A stretch of DNA of 64,000 nucleotides from NCBI GenBank assembly GCA_021821055.1, contig JAKACX010000002.1, positions 40,636-104,635 on the forward strand. The letters are read 5' to 3'. The DNA comes from Bacillota bacterium (lineage in GTDB: Bacteria; Bacillota; Bacilli; Alicyclobacillales; SLC66). The notes beneath the pieces were generated by a model. The model had not been told where the DNA came from. It did not search any database and saw only the letters and a list, made by a program, of their open reading frames with translations. Shown here one piece after another: positions 46,575 to 49,956 of this stretch. Each line of letters opens with the position of its first letter. Position 1 is the stretch's first letter. The position numbers and the translations under genes are program-made.

Positions 46575-46772
46575 TTACATGCCGTATTTCTTGCGGAACT
46601 TGTCCACGCGACCGCCGGCGTCGACAAATTTTTGCTTCCCGGTAAAGAATGGATGGCATTTCGAGCAGACCTCGACGCGTAGATTCTTCTTGATGGAGCC
46701 TGTTTCAAACTGCTCTCCGCACGCGCAGGTAACGGTCACCTTATGGTAATCCGGATGAATCGCCGCCTTCAC
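46575..46772 (-). CDS. rpmE: 50S ribosomal protein L31 (Zn-binding type)
   Basis: [67 protein letters not shown] start with GGAGGT. Confidence 0.95.
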
Positions 46773-46909
46773 GTTCTTCACCTCCACCTTGGCACTTGTC
46801 CATTCGATATCGCGCCAGTCAAGCCGTTCGGCTTTCAAGACACTGTGCGATCATCTGTAACCGTCGAATTGTACCACATCCGACGACATTTACGCAAGAG
46901 TGCGTTACA

Positions 46910-46936
46910 GCATGTTTTGGATTATCCAAAACATGC
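46910..46936. promoter_or_regulatory. Perfect 27-bp palindrome, operator candidate
   Basis: GCATGTTTTGGAT-t-ATCCAAAACATGC, immediately upstream of the -35 at 46938. Confidence 0.8.
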
Positions 46937-46937
46937 A

Positions 46938-46967
46938 TTGCCAGCCAACATTTTTCGGACCTATAAT
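46938..46967 (+). promoter_or_regulatory. Sigma-A promoter
   Basis: TTGCCA-N18-TATAAT about 40 nt upstream of ATG 47007. Confidence 0.65.
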
Positions 46968-47006
46968 CAACCTGCAAGGCGATCCCGCCAAAGGAGGGAA
47001 ACAGAG

Positions 47007-47138
47007 ATGAGCCTCGACAAAAGCAAATGGCAGAGAAACATCCTCGCCGTCGGCATCCTGACCGTAGCGCTGGCGTTCGCGGTCGCGCCGCAACTGTGGA
47101 CGCTTCCGGCGCCCACACTGCCGCCCGTTTTCTGGTAG
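47007..47138 (+). CDS. 43-aa single-TM small protein
   Basis: AAGGAGGGAAACAGAG-ATG; MSLDKSKWQRNILAVGILTVALAFAVAPQLWTLPAPTLPPVFW. Confidence 0.75.
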   Translation: MSLDKSKWQRNILAVGILTVALAFAVAPQLWTLPAPTLPPVFW

Positions 47139-47234
47139 AAGGCGGCGCGGCGATGCCGGACGGGCCGTCCGCCACTGCCGCGCCCCGTCTTTCGCAAATG
47201 GCAATGTGACAGCGCAGGCCCAGCGACTTCACAT

Positions 47235-47284
47235 CCGGCGTCCGAGGCTTCAGTCGGACCCGGCGTCCGAGGTATCAGTCGGAC
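47235..47284. repeat. 25-bp tandem duplication
   Basis: CCGGCGTCCGAGGCTTCAGTCGGAC / CCGGCGTCCGAGGTATCAGTCGGAC. Confidence 0.9.
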
Positions 47285-47293
47285 GCCCCAGGT

Positions 47294-48631
47294 TCAGCGC
47301 CCCTCGCCTGCCTTGATCCCGCGCCTGCCGTGATTTGCATGATCAGAGTTCTCCCGGTCGCCAGAACCGGCCTTGCCGCGCGGGCCAGCGCTCCACGTCG
47401 GCGGGTGCGTATAGCTCCCGATGCGGAGTCCCGGGCAGGACGCCCGCAGCCGTTCGATCATCTCGAGCAGGCCGCGCGGTTCGCCGATGCGCGCGGGAAT
47501 CCTGGCGAGGTAGTGATCGGGATCGATGTTCAGGTTGCGCAGCTGCACGAGCCTGACCCCTGTGCGCTGAATGAATCCGATCATCGCGTCCATTTCCTCG
47601 TCACGGTCGGAAGCGCCAGGGAATACAAGGTAATTAAGGGACACCGTCACGCCCCGCGACGACGCGTACGCGGCAGAGGCCTCCACGTCGCGCAGCGTGT
47701 AGCCGCGCGGTCTGTAGTAGGCCGTGTAGTGGTCCTCGAGCGCACTGATCGTGGAAATGCGCATGAGGTCCAGCCCCGCGTCGACGATTGTCTTGATGTG
47801 TCGCGTAAAACCCGCATTCGTGTTGATGTTGATGTAGCCGGTCCGGACCATTTCCCTGGCGCGCCTGATCGCTTCCGCGATATCCGGTGCGCGCAAAGAC
47901 GGTTCGCCCTCACACCCTTGGCCGAAGGAAATGATGGCCTCCGGCCCCGCCGCGCGGAGGTGGTTGACGATCAGGTCGGCCATGTCCGCCGCCGACGGCC
48001 GGATTTCAAGCCGCGTCTGAGGCGATGGGAATCCGGCGTCGTCCGGCTGCTCGCTGATGCAGCCGATGCAGCCCGCGTTACAGGAGGACGAGACAGGCAG
48101 CGCGGCTTCCCTGGAGAAGAAGAATGTATTGCGCGCCGTGACACATTCGTAATTCAGCGCGCAACCCGCCAGGTGCTCGTAAAGGGGATTGCCGTGGTCT
48201 TGCTGCACCTGCAGCACGCGCTTTCGAACCTCATCCTCGCCGTACTGCAGCGGATTCCACGGATCGGGATCGTCGGTTTCCGCGGCCGCGACATAGAACT
48301 TCCCGCGCGAATACCCCACCGCGGTGTAGCCAAAGAGCGGCAGGGGGTGCCCCGGCTCCCTGTGGTACGCCGGCAGGTAGAGGCGGGTGTAACCCTGCGG
48401 AAGCAGCGCCCCGACCGCGGTGAATTCCTTCGGCAACGCCTTGAGTGCGCCGCCCTTCGGATCGAGGCCTAGCGCCCGGCTGCCCGGGATGCCGACAAGT
48501 GTCGCCCCTTTCGGAAGGGGAATCCACTCGCGCGCCTGAAGCTCGGTCACGTCGCTGCCCGTCCGCCCCAGGGCGGACATGTCGGGCGCGTCGAACACCC
48601 TCCCGTCGCAGTCGGCGTACGCCATGCGCAT
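47294..48631 (-). CDS. Radical SAM protein
   Basis: [17 protein letters not shown] (CxxxCxxC); [33 protein letters not shown]-like strand. Confidence 0.88.
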
Positions 48632-48654
48632 CGGGTGTCGGTCGATCTGCGGTT

Positions 48655-49956
48655 TCACTTCGCACTCACATGCCTCTGGTCGCGGTCGCGTCCCGAGGCG
48701 GAGGAGGATTCGCGGGAGTCCGTGCTTTCCAACGAGGCGAGAAACTCTGCATTGGAACGGGACTTGTTGAAACGGCGCAGGAAGATCTCGGTAAACTCCG
48801 CGTTCTCGCCGAGCGATTTGCGCAGCGCCCACATCTTGTCGAGTTCCTCGCGGGTCAGCAACAGATCTTCCCGCCGCGTCCCGGAGCGCCTGATGTCAAA
48901 CGCGGGAAACACGCGTTTCTCGGCGAGCCGGCGGTCCAGGTGCAGTTCAAGGTTGCCGGTCCCCTTGAACTCTTCGTAGATGACGTCGTCCATGCGCGAA
49001 CCCGTGTCGATCAGAGCCGTGGCGATGATCGTCAGGCTTCCGCCCTCTTCAATATTGCGCGCTGCGCCAAAGAAGCGCTTCGGCCGATGGAACGCCGCGG
49101 GATCAATACCGCCCGACAGCGTGCGCCCACTCGGCGGGATGACCAGGTTGTACGCGCGCGCCAACCGAGTGATGCTGTCCATCAGGATGACGACGTCCCG
49201 TTTGTGCTCGACAAGGCGCGTTGCGCGCTCCAGCACCAGTTCGGCGACCTTGATGTGGTTCTCCGGAACCTCGTCAAACGTGGACGCAACCACTTCACCG
49301 TTGACCGACCGTTGCATGTCGGTCACTTCTTCGGGGCGTTCGTCGATGAGCAGCACGAAAAGGTCGACATTCGGGTAGTTGGCCGAGATGCTGTTCGCGA
49401 TCTCCTTGAGCAGCAGCGTCTTGCCTGCCTTTGGCGGCGCCACGATCAATCCGCGCTGTCCCATTCCGACGGGTACAAGGAGATCCATCATGCGCGTCGC
49501 GAACCGGTTCGGTTGAGTTTCGAGAATGAATCTCTCCTGCGGGAACAGCGGTGTCAGTGCGGGGAAATGAAGTCTTTCCGCGGCGGTTTCCGGGCTCGTG
49601 CCGTTGACGGCCTCCACCTGCAACAGTCCGAAGTACCGTTCGTTGTCCTTTGGCGGCCTGACCTTGCCGGATACGAGATCGCCCGGCCGGAGATCGAACC
49701 GCCGGATCTGCGACGCCGCCACGTAAATGTCTTCCGCACTGGGGAGGTAACCGATGGGCCGGAGAAACCCGAAACCTTCCTGCATGACGTCAAGCACACC
49801 TTCGGCGAAAATCAGTCCGTCCTTCTCTGCCTGCGCCCGGAGCACCGCGAAGATGAGTTCCTTCTTCTTCATCCCCGCATAGTGAGGGATCTCAAATTCC
49901 TTAGCCAGCTTGTAAAGCTCCGGGAGCTTTTTCGATTCCAGATCTTTGATTTGCAA
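48655..49956 (-). CDS. rho: Transcription termination factor Rho
   Basis: [42 protein letters not shown]. Confidence 0.98.

Follow-up and report, generated by a model that had tools for sequence, protein, structure and literature searches.

A 43-aa open reading frame (ORF) between rpmE and a convergent radical SAM gene is, judging from its conservation in relatives, a genuine and isolated (monocistronic) gene, which standard annotation would probably miss. The interpretation we favor, with a probability of about one half, is that the gene represents an order-wide, rapidly diverging family of short exported or membrane-anchored peptides whose C-terminal tail works outside the cytoplasm. The gene lies in a 64-kb stretch of DNA, hereafter the window, from a genome of 2.34 Mb that is 74% complete; comparison of the radical SAM protein places unclassified Bacillota MAGs and Sulfoacidibacillus thermotolerans nearest to this genome among named relatives, followed by Alicyclobacillus. 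The interval that holds the gene is bordered by rpmE-prfA on one side and by radical SAM-rho on the other, and is referred to here as the slot.

The divergent neighbor rpmE, encoding ribosomal protein L31, occupies 46575–46838 of the minus strand in the ORF list, and its true start is probably located 3′ of the TTG at 46838 because relatives align only from approximately residue 18. A putative rpmE promoter, TTGCGT-N18-TACAAT, was located by eye on the same strand at 46868–46897, and a −10-like stretch matching it recurs beside rpmE in relatives. The microprotein gene extends on the plus strand from the ATG at 47007 to the TAG at 47136–47138, and is preceded by the Shine-Dalgarno sequence AAGGAGGG at 46991–46998, eight bases before the start codon. 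Downstream, a strong G+C-rich inverted repeat of 20 nt (47144–47184, z −3.65), found by folding and repeat search, is probably a bidirectional terminator shared by the microprotein gene and the convergent radical SAM gene, without a clean T tract. The latter occupies 47294–48832 of the minus strand in its longest frame (PF04055, 44.9 bits against a cut-off of 29.5), and translation probably begins further downstream than the start of that frame. In the spacer between the two genes, a 25-nt unit, CCGGCGTCCGAGGCTTCAGTCGGAC, is also present twice in tandem, at 47235–47284. The radical SAM gene adjoins rpmE in many Bacilli, and Paenibacillus, Brevibacillus, and Carboxydocella retain the junction, for the most part with a spacer of approximately 90–200 bp that is too short for the microprotein gene; from this distribution, the junction is evidently old. 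Several spacers in the window's family are longer. The slot can also take whole genes, including a 143-aa methionine sulfoxide reductase B-like gene in G008 (L022/L045) and a transporter-like gene in G016 (L018), both recognized by eye.

The product of the gene, MSLDKSKWQRNILAVGILTVALAFAVAPQLWTLPAPTLPPVFW, comprises a basic N-terminus, one 16-residue hydrophobic segment (approximately residues 12–27), and a Pro/aromatic tail, APQLWTLPAPTLPPVFW. Each of G005, G012, G006, G007, G013, and G016 has a homologous ORF of 43–46 aa in the slot, on the corresponding strand, so that the gene is present in 7 of 18 family genomes, including the window genome, and in four genera. G007 and G016, both of the same genus as G013, were retrieved by a profile built without either of them. 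The members in the window's family have in common a basic N-terminus, a hydrophobic segment, the motif P-[NQ]-[YFL]-x-x-[LM]-P-[PA], and a short, proline-rich terminus. Third codon positions account for most of the substitutions, and dN/dS is approximately 0.04 for G012/G005, 0.08 for G013/G007, and 0.1 for G013/G016; G005 and G012 differ at one internal residue at a dS of 0.55. No Pfam or NCBIfam model matched the window protein or three homologs, a profile scan of 398 class genomes yielded no credible homolog outside the family and only doubtful matches within long frames, tblastn with the microprotein gave no match in phages, and a search of open-access literature found no account of the locus. 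The preliminary description, made from the window alone, had proposed an isolated gene for a protein with a single hydrophobic segment and no recognized family, led by a strong ribosome-binding site, and its coordinates proved correct throughout. The ribosome-binding site is present, the protein matches no family model, and the description's proposal that conservation of the ORF and synonymous bias would support the gene is borne out by homologs in the same slot and by dN/dS values of approximately 0.04–0.1, which compare relatives rather than strains of the window's own species. At the level of the gene, the finding is therefore stronger than the earlier reading of a single sequence could know.

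The same description had placed a perfect 27-bp palindrome immediately before a sigma-A promoter, and both elements are present. The palindrome (13-1-13) occupies 46910–46936 and reads GCATGTTTTGGAT-T-ATCCAAAACATGC; the promoter follows one base later on the plus strand, with TTGCCA at 46938–46943, an 18-nt spacer, and TATAAT at 46962–46967, matching 11 of 12 consensus positions. Relatives have similar hexamers at the equivalent position, and the region contains two promoter-like sites, compared with an expectation of 0.1 in shuffled sequence. Apart from the palindrome, no inverted repeat in the window combines arms of at least 13 with a spacer of 0–3; in 20 simulated windows, no repeat occurred at arm 13 and 0.1 per window at arm 12. 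The proposal that the palindrome is an operator held in part. Its right, promoter-proximal half corresponds to an element conserved in five genera, whereas the mirror half is perfect in the window alone, and neither a regulon nor a regulator was found. Briefly, alignment on the −35 hexamer reveals 13–14 conserved bases before it, with the consensus T[CA]CAAAnnnKGYA; the element reads TCCAAAACATGCA in the window, TACAAAATGTGYA in G005 and G012, TACAAAATTGGCA in G006, TCCAAAAAGTGTA in G013 and G007, TCCAAAAAATGCA in G016, and TCCAAAGCTTGTA in G004, which has no ORF. The distance to rpmE varies, and the element therefore belongs to the microprotein promoter. The genome-wide search that had been suggested as a route to a regulon returned a single copy, the palindrome itself, in the 2.34-Mb genome with three mismatches allowed over the full site, and a search with its core and two mismatches likewise matched only itself. 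Furthermore, when the half-site pattern was searched in 13 genomes, matches outside the slot fell mostly in coding frames, and a reversed-pattern control gave similar counts in several genomes, which argues against a regulon. To our knowledge, none of the Fur, PlcR, FNR, and other transcription-factor boxes fits both the window and its relatives; the simplest reading is one dedicated regulator for the microprotein gene. A different palindrome of 18 bp, ATCCAAGAGCTCTTGGAT, is found in the Alicyclobacillus genus group g10 in the 5′ leader just downstream of the putative −10 (loci L191, L192, L205, L209, L229, and L204); it varies symmetrically, to TTCCAAGGGCCCTTGGAA in G022, and is unique to the locus in each of five genomes tested. 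As a separate observation, the words TCCAAA and TTCTCCAA are commoner upstream of slot peptide genes across the order than in shuffles (TTCTCCAA in 4 of 21 against 0.05 expected), and the best word overall does not exceed the best shuffled words.

Across the order, the slot is found to carry peptides of the exported type as predicted from their architecture, which was beyond the view of a reading of one sequence. Such peptides of 36–79 aa, encoded on the same strand, were found in 29 genomes of the order, including those of the window's family, and no slot peptide was seen in approximately half of the order's genomes. Hydrophobic small ORFs led by a Shine-Dalgarno sequence occurred in 15 of 47 regions on this strand, against 1 on the other strand and a mean of 0.3 in shuffles. 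Many members of a sister family share a tail motif that is roughly P-[NSQ]-[FYV]-x-x-[LMWK]-P-[PDE]. The g10 tails end in PSFVFLPPWPDEWE, PNFIFLPPFPDEDE, PSFGFLPDWPDDDWE, and similar sequences, g15 tails in APQYVEWPDWL..., and g16 tails in APQVVEWPPW.... Each of 13 g10 genomes contains one strong match, located in the slot, and column identity in the g10 alignment is 0.75 for the tail, 0.48 for the signal segment, and 0.42 for the linker. In G026 (L056, 322–558), the tail motif is present in tandem (QPNYATKPPYYDEV...QPNYAGKPPYYDEV). Constraint is weaker in some sister-family pairs, with dN/dS of 0.2–0.5 for pairs involving G021. When compared with shuffled tails, four of five tails from the window's family score better against the sister-family motif (p 0.0001–0.02); the score of the window's own tail does not exceed chance (p 0.18), and an hhalign comparison between the profiles of the two families is marginal (E 0.013, probability 3%). 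Given the latter two results, homology of all slot peptides within one order-wide family is likely but not proven; the slot peptides of G037, G046, G043, and G040 have position and architecture alone in common with the others.

According to the mechanism that we propose, the sigma-A-type promoter, together with a cis element of its own beside it, would drive expression of a short exported peptide. Export and topology are predicted from the composition of the slot peptides: the basic N-terminus suggests an N-in, C-out arrangement in which it would stay inside, the hydrophobic segment would enter the membrane, and the tail would end outside the cytoplasm. In many sister-family peptides, the tail is preceded by a signal peptide that contains a typical cleavage site of the AxA type, and cleavage there would free the tail; in the window's family, Pro follows the sole candidate cleavage site, and the tail is therefore probably tethered to the membrane. 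The working part would be this tail, APQLWTLPAPTLPPVFW in the window and PN[FY]xx[LM]PP... in relatives, and it may serve as a ligand or signal outside the cytoplasm, acting on a partner in the envelope or at the cell surface. Conservation of the outside tail and its single duplication point to binding outside the cytoplasm. Taken on its own, the role as ligand or signal is a tentative assignment, somewhat short of an even chance. The wider proposal that the rpmE-divergent slot constitutes an order-specific peptide signaling or ligand system, in which single-copy exported peptides with a tail specific to each lineage would have a cis element of their own and would act on receptors encoded elsewhere and of a class other than RNPP_C, is speculative and rather unlikely as a whole.

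The main rival to an outside-acting tail is a membrane microprotein acting in the bilayer, in which the helix would bind and tune a larger membrane protein, in the manner of CydX, AcrZ, or KdpF, and the proline-rich tail would be a passive cap. This is doubtful but retains an appreciable chance of being correct: members of the window's family lack a usable signal-peptidase site and would remain in the membrane, and their hydrophobic segment is conserved in type and includes a single invariant leucine. However, the best-conserved residues are mainly prolines of the tail and not a face of the helix, the sister-family tail is better conserved than the signal segment, cleavable-type signal peptides occur in many members of that family, and the tail is duplicated in G026. 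A classical RRNPP precursor of the Phr, PapR, or NprX kind, which would be exported, cut down to its C-terminal residues, taken up again through an oligopeptide permease, and recognized by a TPR receptor in the cytoplasm, is improbable. The size range of the slot peptides, the basic N-terminus, the hydrophobic segment, and the divergent C-terminus resemble those of Phr and PapR, and the 43-aa microprotein, being small and having a predicted hydrophobic export segment, resembles such a precursor in these respects. The tandem motif of G026 is also consistent with this reading, because tandem pheromone units occur in some Phr pro-peptides (PMC11343458), and a pheromone role with another receptor is accordingly still conceivable. 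Adjacency of the receptor gene is part of the RRNPP signature (PMC10075063), whereas the neighbors here are rpmE/prfA and radical SAM/rho with no receptor gene among them. Furthermore, 59 genomes of the order gave no RNPP_C match above the cut-off, in a search that covered receptors of the PlcR/NprR class and in which control genomes gave no clear positive; for the window genome, the result rests on the 74% complete assembly. These two absences disfavor the classical form of the system.

Two readings would deny the peptide a leading part altogether. If the conserved unit from promoter to terminator mainly made a regulatory RNA, the ORF would be secondary, as might be suggested by G004 (L008), which retains the half-site and a promoter-like pair with no ORF, and in which a 129-nt stretch folds well (z −3.3) and ends in a T-run terminator. 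Nevertheless, the other genomes show clear coding constraint, no credible Rfam match was found in the slot or the window, and the G004 stretch may be a remnant after loss of the ORF, which renders this reading very unlikely. A purely accidental origin of the ORF, together with a palindrome that arose by chance or from a decayed element, has a negligible likelihood: the ORF is short and nested in a longer open frame of 131 aa on the same strand, and the window's genus is represented by its own genome alone, but comparative data already contradict this reading through independent homologs in the same slot that carry a ribosome-binding site, a promoter, and synonymous bias, and through the 15-to-1 strand control. 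Separately, a precursor peptide modified by the radical SAM enzyme (RiPP) was considered and rejected, since the radical SAM gene is found widely in the absence of the peptide: it lies beside rpmE throughout Paenibacillus and Brevibacillus, with an interval that in most cases is too small to encode the peptide, and, conversely, g10 has the peptide and the g10 genomes searched contain no radical SAM relative.

The exported or tethered peptide that we favor adds a conserved, as yet unnamed small-protein family to the acidophilic Bacillota, including juice-spoilage Alicyclobacillus and relatives of Sulfoacidibacillus, and this family was found through its fixed slot and not through sequence alone. 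Because the tail diverges among genera, is present in tandem in one genome, and is predicted to lie outside, the use of an extracellular peptide ligand or signal that does not rely on known classes of receptor becomes a testable proposal.

Several known systems resemble the slot peptides in part. SecM and MifM are secretion-monitoring arrest peptides that act on a downstream gene on the same strand; like them, the microprotein is a short, leader-like product, predicted to be exported or membrane-bound, whose C-terminus is rich in proline, but a cis-acting arrest function does not fit, as it has no gene behind it on its own strand to regulate and the next gene is convergent behind the terminator-like hairpin. 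Phr, PapR, and NprX are likewise short products with a basic N-terminus, one hydrophobic export segment, and a short lineage-specific C-terminal tail, whereas the slot peptide is encoded by a single-copy gene in a housekeeping slot and, in the window's family, has no usable signal-peptidase site. The single-pass membrane microproteins CydX, AcrZ, and KdpF are similar in size and in having one hydrophobic helix. The microprotein differs from them in that its gene does not share an operon with genes for a membrane complex, its sequence matches no family, and its conservation centers on the predicted outside tail and not on the helix.
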